Shown one piece after another: positions 26,672 through 35,081 of a stretch of DNA of 35,495 nucleotides; positions within the stretch are counted from its first letter, which is position 1; the number at the start of each line of letters is the position of its first letter. Source of the DNA: Burkholderiales bacterium (lineage in GTDB: Bacteria; Pseudomonadota; Gammaproteobacteria; Burkholderiales; Burkholderiaceae); contig JAMFSV010000366.1 in NCBI GenBank assembly GCA_026225455.1, positions 1-35,495 on the forward strand, read 5' to 3'. The position numbers were made by a program, and so were the translations under genes. The notes beneath the pieces are model-generated. The model was not told the DNA's origin, ran no database searches, and saw only the letters and a list, made by a program, of their open reading frames with translations.

Positions 26672-27400
26672 TCATATCGAGGTTGTCAACGCCGTCAGCC
26701 AGTTCGGACTGAACCACAGCAGCATTGCTTCGAGTTGCCGGTCGAAACCGCTCAGCACCAGCATGCCGAGCACCACAAACAAACCGCCCAAGACCAATCT
26801 GGCGCGTTTGCCGAAAGTCGCCAGAGAGCCTCGCACGCGGGTCGCGGAGGCACGCGACACAGCGCCGATAAGCATCAACGGCAGTCCGGCCCCCACGCCG
26901 AAGACAATCATCAACAGCGTGATATGAGCCAGACTTCGGCCTTGAGCCGCGAGGGTCGTGGCCGCACCCAGGGTCGGACCGACGCAGGGGCTCCAGACCA
27001 AGCCCAGCAGCAAACCGATCAGGAATTGACCGCTCAAGCCATCGCCTTTGACCGACCCTAACACCTGCTGGCCGGCCGCGCCAAGGCGCGCGCTAAGTTT
27101 GACGAAGCCGGACTGCAAGCGTGCGGAGATCATCACCCAGCCGAACAGCACCATCAAGCCCGCTGCCACCCGGCGAAACGTGTCGCCATCGAGGCCGAGC
27201 GAAGCGCCCAGGGTGGCAATAAAAATGCCGACCAGTGCGAACGAGAGGCTCAAGCCCAGCGCCAGCGCGACCGTGCCCCACCGATGTTTGGACAGCGCCG
27301 AGGCGACCAGGATGGGCAACAAAGGCAAGACGCAAGGCGACAGGACGGACGCGGCTCCCGCGACAAAACCGAGCGCGTAGGTGGCGAAACCAAACTCCAT
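26672..27400 (-). CDS. CcdA/DsbD-transmembrane-like cytochrome c biogenesis protein
   Basis: GFVAGAASVLSPCVLPLLPILVASA and LGLVWSPCVGPTLGAATTLAA: paired Cys-containing TM motifs of the CcdA family; starts within the stop of the thioredoxin gene. Confidence 0.9.
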   Translation of the reverse strand: MEFGFATYALGFVAGAASVLSPCVLPLLPILVASALSKHRWGTVALALGLSLSFALVGIFIATLGASLGLDGDTFRRVAAGLMVLFGWVMISARLQSGFVKLSARLGAAGQQVLGSVKGDGLSGQFLIGLLLGLVWSPCVGPTLGAATTLAAQGRSLAHITLLMIVFGVGAGLPLMLIGAVSRASATRVRGSLATFGKRARLVLGGLFVVLGMLVLSGFDRQLEAMLLWFSPNWLTALTTSI

Positions 27401-27798
27401 TACAAGGCCCGGGCAAAAGTGGCGCGAATTGCCGCTTCCTGCGTTTGTCCGGTCGAGCGGGTCACTTCATGTCCATGCTGGAACACCACAAAGGTCGACT
27501 GCTGTGTCACCTTCAAGTCTTTTTTCAGGGCAACTTCTTTATCGTAATCGGCCTCAAGGATGGTCACCGCTTTGAATTGCGGATCGCTCGACAGCCGATC
27601 GACGATAGGCTGCTGCACCTTGCAGGTCGGGCACCATGTCGCATGCAGATACACCACGGTCGGTGTGCCTGCCGCCATGGCCTGGTCGAACCTGGCTTGA
27701 GTGAAGGGCACTTCGCCGGCCAGCGCCGCGCCGCTCAAGGACAGACTCGAGGACAGCAGAAATACCCCGATCAGCCGTTTAGCGATTGCTGCTTTCAT
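27400..27798 (-). CDS. Exported thioredoxin-family protein
   Basis: Signal peptide MKAAIAKRLIGVFLLSSSLSLSGAALA then VVYLHATWCPTCKVQQPIVDRL; WCPTC redox motif. Confidence 0.9.
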   Translation of the reverse strand: MKAAIAKRLIGVFLLSSSLSLSGAALAGEVPFTQARFDQAMAAGTPTVVYLHATWCPTCKVQQPIVDRLSSDPQFKAVTILEADYDKEVALKKDLKVTQQSTFVVFQHGHEVTRSTGQTQEAAIRATFARAL

Positions 27799-27824: not shown

Positions 27825-28466
27825 TTACCAGCGTAGCAAATAAGGGCCGAGCAGCGCGCCGAGCAGTGTCGGAATCAACATGCCCAAGAGATACCAGATG
27901 GCCCAGAACGGCACGCCCATCTCCGGGCAATGCAGGCAATAAGCCAGGGTCGCGGTCGCGCCCGCCAGCAAACCGCCGGCGGCTCCCGCCCGGCGCAATT
28001 GGGTCGGGGCCAGTCCGCGTATGGCCCAGAACACGGCCATAAAAGCGGGAATCGACAGGCCCGCGATATTAACGGGACACACCCGCCAGGTTTGACCCAG
28101 CAATAAAGCCACACGCTGCGACTCCGGCGCGGCCAGCACCATCAGCGCGGCAACACCCCACACCACGGCAATGGGCAGCGCCAGCGCCCATCCGGCTTGA
28201 CCCAAGGGCACGCCGGGGCGGGACAAGCGGGTGCATGCCCATAACGACGCACTCGCCAGGGCCAACGGAAATGCCAGCTTGAACCAGAACAAAGGCGTCG
28301 CCGCTACGCGACCGAGATCGGGACGAACCCCGAACCACAGCGCCATCAGCAGCGTCGCGCCCAGTGCGCCCAGCAGCAGAGCCCAGCTAAAACGTTTGGC
28401 CAGAATCCGGCGATCGACCGGTGCCACGTCGCTGGCCAAGAGTGAAACCAAATCCTGTGTTTTCAT
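27825..28466 (-). CDS. NrsF-type anti-sigma factor (DUF1109), copy 1
   Basis: 213 aa six-TM-like protein, MKTQDLVSLLASDVAPVDRRILAKRF...TWRVC...HCPEMGVPFWAIWYLLGMLIPTLLGALLGPYLLRW; overlaps the ECF sigma gene by 4 bp. Confidence 0.92.
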   Translation of the reverse strand: MKTQDLVSLLASDVAPVDRRILAKRFSWALLLGALGATLLMALWFGVRPDLGRVAATPLFWFKLAFPLALASASLWACTRLSRPGVPLGQAGWALALPIAVVWGVAALMVLAAPESQRVALLLGQTWRVCPVNIAGLSIPAFMAVFWAIRGLAPTQLRRAGAAGGLLAGATATLAYCLHCPEMGVPFWAIWYLLGMLIPTLLGALLGPYLLRW

Positions 28467-29008
28467 GATGCGCCTCGAATCTTCGCCGCCAGCGCTTTCA
28501 AACCCCGATGCACGCCCACTTTGACAGCCGACTCGGACATGCCGGTAAGCTGCGCCGTTTGCACCACCGACAGCCCTTGCAGTTTAACGTGCAGGATCGG
28601 CAAGCGCTGACGGTCCGGCAGTTGTTCCAGCAGCCGGCCGATATCGCGTTTGGCGTCGGCGGGCTCGACATCGGAACAGGCAAAAATCTCCAGATAGTCG
28701 TCCAATGGCTCATTGAGCGCTTCGTGGCGGGCTCGAGCGCGGAAGAAATCCATCATTTTATAACGGGCGATGGCATTCACCCAAGCCGTCAAAGGCTGGT
28801 CGGCACGATAGGTATGGCGGCCGTTATGCACCGCCAGCAAGGTTTCCTGAACGATATCCTCGATGTGGTCCTGCAATTGATACAAGCGCCGTCTCAATAG
28901 CGCGCGCAAATGTCCGCTAAGCTGGTCCAGAAACTCGCGATAGGAAACCGCATCACCGTCCAGCCCTGCCAGAAACAAGATTTTCAACCGTTCCTCAACG
29001 GGATGCAC
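28463..29008 (-). CDS. ECF RNA polymerase sigma factor, SigF-like (ECF16-type), GTG start
   Basis: Region 2 IEDIVQETLLAVHNGRHTYRADQPLTAWVNAIARYKMMDFFRAR and region 4 LPDRQRLPILHVKLQGLSVVQTAQLTGMSESAVKVGVHRGLKAL; paired with DUF1109. Confidence 0.93.
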   Translation of the reverse strand: MHPVEERLKILFLAGLDGDAVSYREFLDQLSGHLRALLRRRLYQLQDHIEDIVQETLLAVHNGRHTYRADQPLTAWVNAIARYKMMDFFRARARHEALNEPLDDYLEIFACSDVEPADAKRDIGRLLEQLPDRQRLPILHVKLQGLSVVQTAQLTGMSESAVKVGVHRGLKALAAKIRGAS

Positions 29009-29025: not shown

Positions 29026-29051
29026 TTCGTTTTATCGGGCATTCTGGTTAC
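29026..29051 (-). promoter_or_regulatory. SigF-type ECF promoter of the sigF-nrsF-trx-ccdA operon
   Basis: Minus strand GTAACC (29051-29046), N16, CGAA (29029-29026); start codon at 29008. Confidence 0.8.
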
Positions 29052-29300
29052 AGCGAGTTCAAAAAAAATATGGGTAAAGGAATTAATGTGAGGATGCGAT
29101 GCACATCGCACCGCCTACCGGGTCCAGCAGGCGATTTCTCGATAAACCGGGGCGCGTGGTATTGATCTGCACACGAACTGAAAGCAGCTCCAGATCGGTC
29201 TCAATGAGATATGACTTTCATTTTAGATCGTTCGCTATAAAATACACTGACGAAAGGGCGATGGCAACCTCGCGCGCGCCTGTTCCAGGACGTAACCACC

Positions 29301-29912
29301 ATGGCACGACCGAAAGAATTCGACGAGGCCGCCGCCCTTGACGCGGCCATGCAATGTTTTTGGGCACGCGGTTACGAAGCCACCTCGGTGCGCGATCTTG
29401 CCGAAAACATGGGCATCACCGGGGCCAGCCTGTACAACACCTTCGGCGACAAGCGCCGACTCTACCAACGCGCACTCGATCAATATGTGCAAGGCATCCT
29501 GGCCGATCGCGTCGAACGCTTCGAGGGACATTTGCCGCCGCGCGCAGCCATCGGCGCATTTTTCAGCGAGATTGTGGCGCGCTCGCTGGGCGATACGCAG
29601 CACAAAGGCTGCATGCTGATCAATTCAGCCGTGGAAATCGCGCCCCACGATCCCGAGTTTCAGCGCATCATCGCCGCGGTACTGGTGCGCATCGAGCAAT
29701 TCTTCCTGCGCTGCGTCACCGCGGGCCAGAGCGACGGCTCGATTACCCTGGCTCAGCCGGCCGACGACTTGGCGCGCTTGCTGCTGAGCACCTTGCTCGG
29801 TATGCGGGTGTTGGCCCGGGTGCGCCCCGAAGCGGAATTGCTCGAAGGTCTGGTGCGGCCCGTCTACGCCTTGCTCGACAGCGTCCACCCCATATCACCG
29901 GCAACGGTTTGA
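29301..29912 (+). CDS. TetR/AcrR family transcriptional regulator
   Basis: MARPKEFDEAAALDAAMQCFWARGYEATSVRDLAENMGITGASLYNTFGDKRRLYQRAL helix-turn-helix. Confidence 0.95.
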   Translation: MARPKEFDEAAALDAAMQCFWARGYEATSVRDLAENMGITGASLYNTFGDKRRLYQRALDQYVQGILADRVERFEGHLPPRAAIGAFFSEIVARSLGDTQHKGCMLINSAVEIAPHDPEFQRIIAAVLVRIEQFFLRCVTAGQSDGSITLAQPADDLARLLLSTLLGMRVLARVRPEAELLEGLVRPVYALLDSVHPISPATV

Positions 29913-29982
29913 CCCATGCTATTTAACCGATGCGGGCGGCATTGGGGCAGCATGCGGCGACTCAAACATCGCCCTCGACGAT

Positions 29983-30624
29983 TTACCAGCGTAACAGCAC
30001 AGGCCCGAGCACACTGCCGATCGCCACCGGCACCAGCATGCCGAGCACATACCAGACACCCCAGAACGGCACCGCCATCTCCAGGCAATACAAGGTATAG
30101 ACCAAGGCCGCTTGAGCCCCGGCCAACAGGCCCGCGCCGGCGCCGGCCAAACGCAGGCGCGTGGGGGCCAAACCGCGCATGGCCCACACCACCGCAATAA
30201 ACGTCGGCACGGACAGCAACACAATGCTCAAGGTACACACGCGCCAGGTGCTGCCCAGCACCAGCGCCAGTCTCAGGCCGCGCGGCGTAGCCCAGATAAA
30301 ACCGAGCGCGGCCAGCCAGACCGCCGACAGCGGTAGCACCAGCATCACCCACCCCAGCACCGCGCTGCTGCCCGGACGCGACAAGCGACCGGCAAGCAAC
30401 AGCGCGCCCACCACCACCGCCAGCGGAAAAGCCAGCCGCAACCAAAACCACGGCGTCGCCAACATCTGCGGCATCTCGCTACGCACACCGAATACCGCCA
30501 CCAGCAAACTCGTCGCGCCCAGCATACCGATCAGCACAGCCAAACCAAAGCGCTTGCCGACCGTGTGCGGGTCGATGGGCGTCACGCGGGTCGCCAGCAT
30601 CGATACCAAGTCACCTGTTCTCAC
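29983..30624 (-). CDS. NrsF-type anti-sigma factor (DUF1109), copy 2, GTG start
   Basis: Collinear without gaps with copy 1 over 213 aa; (M)RTGDLVSMLATRVTPIDPHTVGKRFG...TWRVC...YCLEMAVPFWGVWYVLGMLVPVAIGSVLGPVLLRW; AGGAG 6 nt upstream of GTG. Confidence 0.9.
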   Translation of the reverse strand: MRTGDLVSMLATRVTPIDPHTVGKRFGLAVLIGMLGATSLLVAVFGVRSEMPQMLATPWFWLRLAFPLAVVVGALLLAGRLSRPGSSAVLGWVMLVLPLSAVWLAALGFIWATPRGLRLALVLGSTWRVCTLSIVLLSVPTFIAVVWAMRGLAPTRLRLAGAGAGLLAGAQAALVYTLYCLEMAVPFWGVWYVLGMLVPVAIGSVLGPVLLRW

Positions 30625-30729
30625 CCATGTCTCCTGATTGTGGATATATCTCGCACCTGCCGCGCTCACCCTGTCTTAACGGCAACAATTAACGGCGACC
30701 AGCGGCAAGCGCATCGACCTGAAGTTGTT

Positions 30730-30755
30730 TTCGTTGGCGCGGGTCATTCGGTTAC
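30730..30755 (-). promoter_or_regulatory. SigF-type ECF promoter for nrsF copy 2
   Basis: Minus strand GTAACC (30755-30750), N16, CGAA (30733-30730). Confidence 0.8.
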
Positions 30756-30799
30756 ACCAGGGACCTAAATTTAATTTTTAAAAGAATTTTGTACCCGCT

Positions 30800-30825
30800 G
30801 TAACCGAGGAGGATGCGCCGGCGAA
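30800..30825 (+). promoter_or_regulatory. SigF-type ECF promoter for the bufferin operon
   Basis: GTAACC (30800-30805), GAGGAGGATGCGCCGG (16 nt), CGAA (30822-30825). Confidence 0.82.
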
Positions 30826-30835
30826 TTAACTGTCA

Positions 30836-30878
30836 GATCGCCGGTTTAATCCTCACCAGCAACGCCCTACCGGCGATC
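30836..30878 (+). promoter_or_regulatory. Inverted repeat (stem-loop) in the bufA1 5' leader
   Basis: GATCGCCGGT (30836-30845) and ACCGGCGATC (30869-30878), perfect 10-bp arms, 23-nt loop, between the SigF motif and ATG. Confidence 0.6.
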
Positions 30879-30913: not shown

Positions 30914-31198
30914 ATGAACCCACGCAACCTTGCTACCGCCGCCTTCACCCTCGCCGCTCTGGTCTCCGGTGCCGCAATGGCACAAACCAATGCAGCACCC
31001 GCCAAGACCTCGGTCGAAAAATGTTACGGCGTGGCCCTCTCAGGTCAGAACGATTGCAAAGCCGGCGCCGGCACCACCTGCGCCGCGTCGCAAAAGACCG
31101 ACTACGACGCCGACCATTGGAAGAACGTGCCGGCCGGTACCTGCACTTCGATCAAGACACCGCACGGCATGGGTTCGCTGACCCCGTCCGCGTCCTGA
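30914..31198 (+). CDS. bufA1: DUF2282 bufferin precursor (BufA1-type RiPP precursor)
   Basis: Signal peptide [23 protein letters not shown]; 4-Cys core [46 protein letters not shown]; followed by DUF692 and DUF2063 genes. Confidence 0.93.
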
Positions 31199-31220: not shown

Positions 31221-32063
31221 ATGAAACAGAATCTCGGTGCCGGACTCGGCCTTCGCCCTCAGCATTACGCTGCGGCGCTCGAAGACACCACCTCCGGCTT
31301 ATGGTTTGAAGTCCACCCCGAAAATTACATGGTAGCGGGCGGCCCTCGGCTGGCCTGGCTTGAAGCCATACGCCGAGACAAACCCATCGCGTTGCACGGG
31401 GTCTCGCTGTCATTGGCTGCGGACACGGAGCCGGACCCGCAACATTTGCGGCAACTGGCAAACCTGGTCGAGCGTATCGAACCGGCGCTGGTCTCGGAAC
31501 ATCTGGCGTGGTCGATGTGGCGCGGCGTGTATCACCCGGACCTGTTGCCGTTTCCTCGCACCACTGCCGCGCTAAAGCGGATCGCCGCCAATATTTCGCG
31601 CACCCAGGAGGTGCTGGGCCGGCCCATTGCGCTTGAGAACCCGACTCACTATCTGCATCTGGACAACCACGAATGGAGCGAAATCGATTTTCTGCGCGAA
31701 CTGACGCGACGCACCGGCTGCGGTTTGCTGCTGGACGTGAATAACGTTTTTATCAGCGCGAGCAATCTGCAGTTCGACGCCGCCGCTTACCTCGACCAGA
31801 TTCCCGCCGAGGCTGTGATGGAGATTCATTTGGCCGGCCATAGCGAAGATGCGGAACTGGGTGCCGCACTGCTGATCGACTCGCACGACGCCCCGATTGC
31901 GGAAAGCGTATGGACGCTTTATCGGCGATTGATTCAACGCATAGGTGCGCGACCGACCTTGATCGAACGCGACGACCATCTTCCTGAATTCCAGGAACTG
32001 TTGGTCGAGCGCCAACGTGCACAAGAGGTGCTCGAACCGACATCGCGGCAGGTGGACGTATGA
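31221..32063 (+). CDS. bufB: DUF692 multinuclear non-heme iron oxidase (MNIO), BufB-type
   Basis: [75 protein letters not shown]: full DUF692 motif series. Confidence 0.95.
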
Positions 32064-32896
32064 CCCACTCGCTAACTCGGTTTCAGGACGATTTTATGCA
32101 GGCGCTTTGGCAAGCCGGCGACACCCCTGCCCCTCCGTCTGTAAGCACAGTATCAGCGCATTTTCTGCCGGATCACGAGACCGTGACGCACTTCGATCCA
32201 GCATCGGACCCGGCCGCCCAAGCGGGCTTCAAGGTATATCGCAATACCATCCTAAAAGGTTGTATCGACGCGCTATGCGCCAATTACCCCAGCGTCGCGC
32301 GCCTGGTCGGGACGGATTGGTTTCGTGCCGCGGCCGCTGTATATGTGCGCGATAAACCGCCGAGCGAAGTCGGCCTGCTGGCCTACGGCAAACACTTTGC
32401 GGATTTCCTGGAGCACTTCGAAGGCGCTCGCGAACTACCCTACCTGGCCGATGTGGCCCGGCTCGACCGCTACTGGAGCGAAAGCCATATGGCCGCCGAC
32501 GCCGCGCTGCTGGACCCGGCGGCGCTCACGCGACTGGCTCCGCTTGAGCTTGGCAACACCGTATTGCGACCGCATCCGGCTGCCCGCTGGGCCTGGTTCG
32601 ACACACAACCGGCTTATACCATCTGGTGCGCCAACCGGGAGCAGTCCGCACTGGACGATGCTCTCGCCTGGGTCGCCGAAGGTGCTTTGCTGACACGTCC
32701 GGACAACACGGTGATCTGGCGCGCGGCCGGCCCGGGTTTATGCGCGGTTATGGATGCGTGCGCTGCCGCCAGCTCGCTGGCGCAGGCCGCCGAATCGGCC
32801 CTGCTCGCCGAACCCACACAGGACGTCGCGCAATTATTGTCCGCCCTGATTACCGCGGGCGCACTCAGTCCCACCACCCCGCCCCAACACCTTTAA
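32060..32896 (+). CDS. bufC: DUF2063 putative DNA-binding/partner protein, BufC-type
   Basis: [13 protein letters not shown]...[53 protein letters not shown] overlap with bufB. Confidence 0.93.
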
Positions 32897-32910: not shown

Positions 32911-33384
32911 ATGGAACATGCTCGTCTCACCCTAAGCGCTTCGCGCAATTCGGTACTGGCCGCCTGGAACGGCCTGGCGGATCGACTCAATCGCCTGATC
33001 GGCCATTCGCTACTGGCCTTGATCGCACGCTTTTCGATCGCCGCACTGTTCTTTATGTCAGGCCGGACCAAGGTCACCGGTTTTCTGACCATCACCGATG
33101 GCACCTACGAGTTATTTCGCGACGAATACAAGATCCCGCTGATTCCGCCCGACATCGCGGCTCACATGGCCGCTTATTCCGAACATCTGTTTTCGCTACT
33201 GCTGGTACTGGGCCTGTTCACCCGTTTTTCCGCCTTGGCTTTATTGGGCATGACCTCGGTGATCGAGATTTTTGTCTATCCCGACGCTTGGCCCACCCAT
33301 CTTTCGTGGGCTGGCTTGATGCTTTATATGGTGGGGCGTGGCGGCGGCGTGTTTTCTCTCGACCGCAAGCTGGGTATCAAATAA
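32911..33384 (+). CDS. DoxX family membrane protein
   Basis: [23 protein letters not shown]...[61 protein letters not shown] 32911 preceded by AGGAG. Confidence 0.93.
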
Positions 33385-33458: not shown

Positions 33459-35081
33459 ATGCTTACCAATCTGAAAATTCGTACCGGACTGCTGCTGGTA
33501 CTCGGTCTATTCTCCGTCGCACTATGGGCAGCGGTTTGCATGGCGTGGCTCGATGCACGGCAATCCGGCCGCGCCATGGACGCTGTGATCCGGCTATCGG
33601 ATCAGCAAATCGAACCGTTGCACGACACCGAACGCTTGATGCTGAGTGCGCTGGTCAATATGGACAATGCCTACATCGACTTGCAGCGCGGCGATCAGAT
33701 CAAAGCCAACGACTACACCCGCAAAGCGTCCGCAGCCTTGCAACAAGCCAAGACCACCATCGATGCCTATCGCGCCGCAAGCAAACAAGATGGCGCCGCC
33801 GACCCGCGCGCGGCACGTGTGCTCGATGCCTACGCCAACTACACCAACGTGCTGACGACGCGCGAAGAAGCTTTATACGACGTGTCGCTGGATGCCTACG
33901 TGGCGGCAACGGCCAATGCGGAACAGGCCGATACCCAGTTCGAAACGACCTTGCGCGAGGTGATCCAGCATGCTGAGCAGATGCGCGACGCGCTGAAGAA
34001 TGCCGCGAATCAACGTTCTTCCACGGCGATCTATCTTGCCGCCGGACTCTTTGTGCTGTCGCTCCTGCTCACCGGCTTCTACTGGATTTTGTTCGATCGG
34101 GTTCTGTTGCAGCCTTTGCGCGCAGCGGGCCATCACTTTGACCGGATTGCCGGCGGCGATCTTACCGCACCGATCAACGGTATCTCGAACAATGAGATCG
34201 GCGTCCTGCTCGCGGCTTTGCAGCGCATGCAGCACAGTCTGATGCAAACCGTGGCCGTAATCCGCCAAGGCACCGACGATGTGCACGCAAGCGCACAGCA
34301 TATCGCCGGCGGCAATATCGAATTATCAAGCCGCACCGAACAACAGGCCGCCGCGCTGGAACAGACCGCGGCAACCCTCGAACAACTCAGCGCCGCGGTC
34401 AAGCAAAACGCGGAAAACACCCAGCACACCACCCAACTGGCGCGCAATGCCGCAAGCGACGCGGTGCAAGGCGGCGAGATGGTGGCGCGCATCGTCGGCA
34501 CCATGGGGCAGGTATCCGAAAGCGCGCACAAGATTACCGACATCGTCGGCGTGATTGACGGGATTGCCTTCCAGACCAACATCCTGGCCTTGAACGCAGC
34601 CGTCGAAGCCGCACGCGCCGGCGTGCAAGGTAAAGGCTTTGCCGTGGTGGCAACTGAAGTGCGCTCGCTGGCCTTGCGCAGCGCGCAAGCCGCCAAAGAA
34701 ATAAAAAAGCTGATCGAAGATTCCGTGACGCGGGTGCAGCTCGGCTCGCAGCAAGTCACCCAAGCAGGCCAGACCATGCAGCAGATCGTGGCTTCGGTGA
34801 ACGAGGTGATGCACACCATGGACCAGATCTCGACCGCCACCTCGGAGCAATCCGACGGCATTGAGCAGGTCAGCCTGGCGGTGATTCAGATGGATCGCTC
34901 GACGCAACAAAACGGCGCATTGGTGGAACAGACTTCGGCTGCGGCCAACGGCTTGAAACAACAAGCCGATGGCCTGGTGGAATCGGTTTCCTTGTTTCAG
35001 ATCGAGGTCCGGCAACCCGAGGCCGCGCATTCGGAGCGCTATGGCACGGCAGTGGGGTTGGCGCTGGCGGCGGCGATGTGA
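33459..35081 (+). CDS. Methyl-accepting chemotaxis protein (Tar-like four-helix-bundle sensor, HAMP, MA domain)
   Basis: [32 protein letters not shown]; signalling tip [58 protein letters not shown]. Confidence 0.96.

Follow-up and report, generated by a model that had tools for sequence, protein, structure and literature searches.

GTAACC-N16-CGAA motifs ahead of a sigma factor operon, a second nrsF gene and a bufferin operon in a Burkholderiales bacterium

Described SigF-type systems and the present locus

The DNA considered here is a stretch of 35,495 nucleotides from a Burkholderiales bacterium (contig JAMFSV010000366.1), called the window in the following. It contains a gene for an extracytoplasmic function (ECF) sigma factor that is SigF/ECF16-like (sigF) together with the gene of its anti-sigma factor (nrsF1), a second, paralogous anti-sigma factor gene (nrsF2) and a bufferin operon, and each of these three units is preceded by the motif GTAACC-N16-CGAA. 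Neither the promoter nor the regulon is new in kind; what is new is a second NrsF which appears to be sigma-controlled and is altered in its sensor region, and a feedback brake of this sort looks undescribed.

In Caulobacter, Kohler et al. (2012) gave the SigF motif as GTAACC-N16-CGAA, supported by 5' rapid amplification of cDNA ends (5'RACE) and reporters, and reported autoregulation; one SigF target is an operon of the composition DUF2282-DUF692-DUF2063-DoxX (PMC3511200). Copper induces this regulon and the sigF mutant is copper-sensitive (PMC8224329). The ECF16 consensus, (T/C)GTAAC-N17-CGAA, was mapped by transcription start sites in Brucella, and known ECF16 targets include Msr genes and a MXKDX-repeat protein (PMC8315932). 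The target promoters of Sinorhizobium RpoE7, also mapped by their start sites, agree with the ECF16 consensus (PMC6180224). The preliminary description of the window had likened its motifs to the Caulobacter SigF (ECF16) promoter, and the likeness is borne out: the Caulobacter motif is identical and the Brucella consensus is the same motif.

The window shares with Caulobacter the promoter motif, the sigF-nrsF operon, the DUF2282-DUF692-DUF2063-DoxX target and the two NrsF cysteines. For Caulobacter, by contrast, the passages cited describe one NrsF (CC3252) and a regulon without mention of trx-dsbD. The Caulobacter regulon also includes a second bufferin-type operon and msrPQ, whereas in the genome of the window no motif within one mismatch was found near the three Oxidored_molyb (msrP-type) genes. 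The BcrS-AbcS system of Brucella melitensis has in common the ECF16 consensus and a methionine-rich repeat protein encoded beside the sigma factor, as in several Paraburkholderia loci, but it responds to hypochlorous acid, and the targets named in the passages cited are bcrXQP, iron and secretion genes, with no bufferin operon (PMC8315932). Closer in other respects is EcfF-OsrA of Bradyrhizobium japonicum, which comprises an ECF16 sigma factor, an NrsF-type anti-sigma factor with the cysteine pair, and a co-regulated periplasmic thioredoxin and DsbD-like protein; in contrast to the window it responds to hydrogen peroxide, EcfF has OsrA as its single anti-sigma factor, and the paralogue TmrS pairs with another sigma factor, EcfS (PMC3420878). 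OsrA with C179S still retains the sigma factor but does not let it go, and OsrA with C129S is unable to retain it (PMC3420878). The gig operon of Cupriavidus metallidurans, with rpoQ-rsqA, is induced by copper and gold; there the sigma/anti-sigma region was reported as RpoD-dependent and one anti-sigma gene was described (PMC10304878).

The promoter motif in the window, its genome and its relatives

The features on which the comparison depends are the following.
29026..29051, minus strand: putative SigF-type promoter of sigF-nrsF1(-trx-dsbD), (T)GTAACC-N16-CGAA(TAA), 17 nt from CGAA to the GTG start
30730..30755, minus strand: putative SigF-type promoter of nrsF2, (T)GTAACC-N16-CGAA(AAC), with a weaker -10 extension and a back-to-back counterpart in Herbaspirillum and Delftia
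30756..30799, no strand: 44-bp A/T-rich spacer between the divergent -35 boxes, A/T-rich in Herbaspirillum too
30800..30825, plus strand: putative SigF-type promoter of the bufferin operon, (T)GTAACC-N16-CGAA(TTA), found by motif scan and extended pattern
28463..29008, minus strand: ECF sigma factor gene, SigF/ECF16-like, GTG start, 181 aa (Pfam Sigma70_r2 and Sigma70_r4_2; NCBIfam NF009188, 313 bits, cut-off 250)
27825..28466, minus strand: nrsF1, anti-sigma factor (Pfam NrsF, 247 bits), overlapping sigF by 4 nt and keeping C130, C177, H179, C180 and P181
29301..29912, plus strand: TetR-family regulator divergent from sigF (Pfam TetR_N), recurring beside sigF copies in relatives
29983..30624, minus strand: nrsF2, paralogous anti-sigma factor (Pfam NrsF, 226 bits), keeping C130 and C180 and having T177, Y179 and L181

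These three sites are the only exact matches to the motif in the window. In shuffled windows the mean was 0.05, and three sites were reached in 0 of 100 shuffles; the sites are far beyond chance, because only about 0.0009 are expected in the two upstream gaps (581 bp in total). The preliminary description had reported three perfect copies with 16-nt spacers, two of them with -35 boxes facing each other about 44 bp apart between nrsF2 and bufA, and both statements are confirmed (boxes at 30750-30755 and 30800-30805, 44 bp between them). A T, which lies outside the searched pattern, precedes GTAACC in all three. Each site is on the strand of the gene behind it, at 17 nt from the sigma GTG, 88 nt from bufA and about 105 nt from the GTG at 30624 that is the likely start of nrsF2, and the spacer between the divergent boxes is likely to hold shared UP-like elements. 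Scanning the window with up to two mismatches was uninformative (29 matches against 24 expected), and scans for sigma-70 promoters and terminators gave no excess over shuffles.

The sigma factor has Sigma-70 regions 2 and 4 only, and its best named NCBIfam model, NF009188, is that of a generic sigma subfamily. TGTAACC-N16-CGAA ahead of its gene agrees in sequence with the autoregulatory ECF16 promoter, and the adjoining anti-sigma gene of the six-helix NrsF/DUF1109 type, with its 4-nt overlap, is predicted to be cotranscribed. The SigF/ECF16 label given earlier is thus based on NrsF partnership, promoter and targets.

For comparison we used 73 sigma-homologue loci from a genome collection, mostly of beta-proteobacteria, plus the window, and sought the motif within 300 bp upstream. 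The exact motif was found ahead of 63 of the 75 sigma open reading frames (ORFs) and 32 of the 43 bufA ORFs. In 1.05 Mb of relatives, the window left out, there were 152 sites with the 16-nt spacer, against 0-6 for each of the other spacers from 10 to 23 nt and 0 to 8 for the reversed pattern. We regard the spacer comparison as decisive, and this conservation over 73 loci with a fixed spacer supports a function of the motif. The preliminary description had proposed that the sigma factor regulates itself and co-controls nrsF2 and the bufferin operon; the conserved motif supports both parts, which for this organism we infer.

Among 118 footprinted and classified sites, the three of the window included, T precedes GTAACC in 117, and an A/T tract lies at -18 to -11 upstream of GTAACC. 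The bufA sites read mostly CGAA[T/C]TA. The extended pattern TGTAACC-N16-CGAAYWA gave 38 matches against 0 control matches, in 14 genomes; its specificity there is partly by construction, because some of these relatives had gone into its derivation, which leaves the reversed control unaffected. It separates true sites from background well enough to be used for regulon mapping in other genomes. In the window's own assembly (3.64 Mb, 70.75% complete) it matches the sigF and bufA sites only. A fourth TGTAACC-N16-CGAA of this assembly (contig C247, locus L006) was rejected: it is followed by CGAACTG, no gene was identified behind it, and the larger ORF on the contig faces the opposite way.

The claim that the motifs define a SigF regulon was too strong for the bare motif. 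The genome-wide scan for regulon and background rate that had been suggested with it showed no enrichment, with 9 matches in the assembly against 12 for the reversed control, and therefore GTAACC-N16-CGAA alone does not define the regulon. We rejected it as a genome-wide regulon search, as it is at background level in the own genome and in most relatives.

The second anti-sigma factor and the proposed circuit

NrsF2 most likely starts at the GTG at 30624, with an AGGAG box ahead and a product of 213 aa, the length of NrsF1, and not at 30669. No NrsF beyond the two window copies was found in the assembly. Across the family, 91 of 300 sampled genomes contain NrsF, and about a quarter of the 91 carry at least two copies by our count. 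A tree of 76 NrsF sequences is split by one branch, with support of 98/97, into 27 NrsF2, including the window copy, and 49 sigF-linked NrsF1; the tree is unrooted, and sequences had first been assigned to NrsF2 according to which of the two window copies they matched best, a grouping that the tree then confirmed. An earlier tree of 105 rows agrees with this picture. With members in Burkholderiaceae, Herbaspirillum and Delftia, NrsF2 is by its phylogeny an old, distinct paralogue group, which the preliminary description had overlooked.

The gene nrsF2 lies behind a SigF-type site in 26 of the 27 cases, the exception being locus L266. Its surroundings are of at least four kinds, operon membership being judged from spacing and strand. 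It has its own promoter site in the window, L262 and L268, is the last gene of the bufferin operon in, for example, L147, L149, L150, L157, L259 and L263, follows sigF-nrsF1 in L152, L256 and L272, and stands first, ahead of sigF, in Herbaspirillum and Delftia. The nrsF-sigF-nrsF clusters of the latter (L045, L046, L048, L049, L058, L062) share with the window the two NrsF paralogues and the back-to-back nrsF2/bufA promoters with an A/T-rich centre. They differ in that nrsF2, sigF and nrsF1 are co-directional, whereas in the window tetR separates nrsF2 from sigF, which is preceded by a promoter of its own.

The two groups differ in the residues around the redox sensor cysteine. In NrsF1, the conserved cysteines that correspond to C131/C181 of Caulobacter are present: C130, C180 and also P181 occur in 49/49 sequences, H179 in 47/49 and C177 in 38/49. 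In NrsF2, position 179 is Y or F and both C177 and P181 are absent in all 27; C180 is found in 25 and C130 in 9, including the window copy, and is lost in 18. The window NrsF2 thus retains C130 and C180, the latter in the context YC180L rather than HC180P. NrsF2 also has positions of its own, G33, Y45, F66, P114, L119, L121, L123, Q171 and Y179, that are conserved at 96-100%. In view of the changed sensor residues and of the behaviour of OsrA C179S and C129S, we therefore read NrsF2 as an induced brake with altered sensing.

It is highly probable that the ECF16/SigF-type sigma factor encoded nearby uses the three sites as its promoters, within a full model that includes the NrsF2 brake. In unstressed cells the membrane protein NrsF1, together with NrsF2 if present, would hold the sigma factor. 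Stress in the periplasm from metals or oxidants, with copper as the most likely cause, would act on the sensor cysteines of NrsF1 and release it. SigF would then transcribe the operon to which sigF, nrsF1 and probably trx-dsbD belong, giving positive feedback and periplasmic thiol repair, as well as the bufferin operon, whose product would be a copper-binding ribosomally synthesized and post-translationally modified peptide, and nrsF2. NrsF2, changed around its sensor cysteine, would most likely be an induced brake of different sensitivity that binds SigF and caps or ends the response. More generally, we tentatively propose, with a little less than even confidence, that the twin NrsF proteins of beta-proteobacterial SigF systems are an inducible holder (NrsF1) and a sigma-made, retuned or signal-blind brake (NrsF2) which shuts off or caps the copper response. 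A bufferin copper-handling operon, a thiol-repair pair and a second anti-sigma factor would in this way come under one conserved promoter in beta-proteobacteria, and in the twin layout one has a compact example, open to testing, in which a sigma factor makes its own sensor-altered inhibitor.

NrsF2 might instead sense another signal, such as a different metal or oxidant, so that one sigma factor integrates two inputs. The conservation of its own positions indicates that NrsF2 is under constraint and not decaying, and this, along with the retention of C180 in 25 of 27, would suit a second sensor; nothing that we saw points to a particular second signal, however, and the position behind SigF-type sites in 26 of 27 cases suits feedback at least equally, so that we hold this explanation to be possible and on the unlikely side. 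We hold it less likely still that NrsF2 is a decoy or a weakened paralogue with hardly any hold on SigF, its altered cysteine region reflecting relaxed function. The loss of C130 in 18 of 27 NrsF2 sequences speaks for this reading, as replacement of this residue abolishes OsrA function (PMC3420878), but the window copy retains both cysteines, and the group, which has survived as a single old lineage in Burkholderiaceae, Herbaspirillum and Delftia, shows numerous positions that are fully conserved within it.

A different regulator or sigma factor could be the main reader of the motifs, for instance with the divergent TetR protein controlling sigF and the GTAACC sites secondary. A tetR gene is divergent from sigF in the window and several relatives, and six TetR-adjacent sigF copies (L043, L149, L150, L264, L265, L273) are without GTAACC-N16-CGAA, which suggests TetR control of those copies; we consider this improbable for the motif as a whole, as the exact promoter is intact despite the TetR neighbour in the window, L042, L047 and L272, and the motif, with its fixed spacing, matches an experimentally supported SigF promoter. 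TetR is a possible second input. Chance matches in a GC-rich genome, for which one could cite the nine bare matches that do not exceed the reversed control, are hardly conceivable: three sites in 581 bp of upstream DNA have odds of about 1e-10, and the conservation of the motif at orthologous positions across genera already refutes this explanation.

Several observations weigh against the circuit that we favour, in which SigF drives all three units and NrsF2 acts as a brake. Both NrsF proteins of the window fall below the cut-off of 300 of the NCBIfam NrsF equivalog model NF042994 (NrsF1 145 bits, NrsF2 109 bits) and are therefore homologues and candidate functional equivalents. C130, needed for holding the sigma factor in OsrA, is kept in the window copy but is lost in 18 of 27 NrsF2, so that some may not be functional brakes. 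The -10 region of the nrsF2 site, CGAAAAC, deviates from the usual CGAA[T/C][T/A]A, to which the sigF and bufA sites conform, and the bare motif is at background level across the own genome. Direct control of the equivalent gig operon by RpoQ in C. metallidurans was assumed and not demonstrated (PMC10304878), which adds to the interest of the present sites.

Neighbouring genes, the bufA leader and targets in relatives

The remaining features belong to the two predicted transcription units on either side.
26672..27400, minus strand: DsbD/CcdA-like membrane thiol transporter (Pfam DsbD_TM), overlapping trx by 1 nt
27400..27798, minus strand: secreted thioredoxin-like protein with WCPTC (Pfam Thioredoxin), 26 nt after nrsF1
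30836..30878, plus strand: putative hairpin where the leader of the bufA mRNA begins (GATCGCCGGT/ACCGGCGATC), from stem position and arm covariation in relatives
30914..31198, plus strand: bufA-like DUF2282 bufferin precursor, 94 aa (Pfam DUF2282, 81 bits, cut-off 22.4)
31221..32063, plus strand: bufB, MNIO maturase (NCBIfam NF050167, MNIO_BufB, 368 bits, cut-off 310)
32060..32896, plus strand: DUF2063 partner protein, bufC-like (Pfam DUF2063)
32911..33384, plus strand: DoxX-family protein (Pfam DoxX, 67.6 bits)

The pair trx-dsbD probably continues the sigF-nrsF1 transcription unit, a point that the preliminary description had overlooked. Cupriavidus sp. YR651 (L097) likewise has it downstream of nrsF1, in G046 (L153) it comes after the bufferin operon, and it stands behind a SigF-type promoter of its own in L041, L044, G222 (L262; also L189), G134 (L258; also L193) and G240 (L265). 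We rejected it as a new kind of regulon member: because in B. japonicum, too, a thioredoxin and a DsbD-like protein are under the control of EcfF, the pair is support from an independent lineage. In three genomes (L257, L267, L275) an in-frame stop, at an identical position in all of them, divides a sigF copy and likewise an nrsF copy into two parts, and these are apparently decaying second copies.

The DUF2282 precursor, MNIO, DUF2063 and DoxX genes with sigma and NrsF neighbours correspond to a Buf1 gene cluster, which sigma and NrsF genes are known to accompany (PMC12452194). The label bufA1 in the preliminary description is supported by Pfam DUF2282 and not by NCBIfam, where the precursor has no match to a BufA1 model and its sole match, BufA2, is below threshold. 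Copper binding by the modified bufferin peptide is known for the family (PMC12452194) and predicted for the window member.

In 34 of 49 bufA leaders, many of them from related genera and not independent, a stem of at least 6 bp begins 9-10 nt after CGAA. The two adjacent start positions account for 25/49 and 20/49 leaders against 3.3-3.5 in shuffles, and no other position is enriched. The arms covary (GTATCC/GGATAC, GTACCC/GGGTAC, GATCGGC/GCCGATC, GACCGGC/GCCGGTC) around a loop of variable length. The pattern is consistent with a hairpin that forms in the RNA close to the mRNA 5' end, perhaps a protective element or mRNA stabiliser; an Rfam search of the leader gave no relevant family, with one weak match far below threshold. 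At the other end of the operon, about 75 nt separate doxX from the start of a methyl-accepting chemotaxis-like ORF (33461-35081, plus strand); no clear terminator lies in this gap, and transcription of the bufferin operon could run on into the ORF.

In relatives, the extended motif precedes genes for MsrP (L236), cytochrome b561 (L219, L243), DoxX (L221), a CxxCxxCC protein (L220) and beta-propeller-like proteins (L235, L245); the CxxCxxCC protein, a putative metal chelator, stands behind a SigF-type promoter in several relatives (L220/L233, L044:1635-2468). Several of these names rest on reading the translations, only the cytochrome b561 and CxxCxxCC relatives having been run against Pfam. 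Small secreted methionine-rich proteins made of SKDSM-type repeats were also found behind SigF-type promoters with the extended motif (L225, L226, L227, L229), in most cases divergent from sigF, and they resemble the MsrX/BcrX scavengers.
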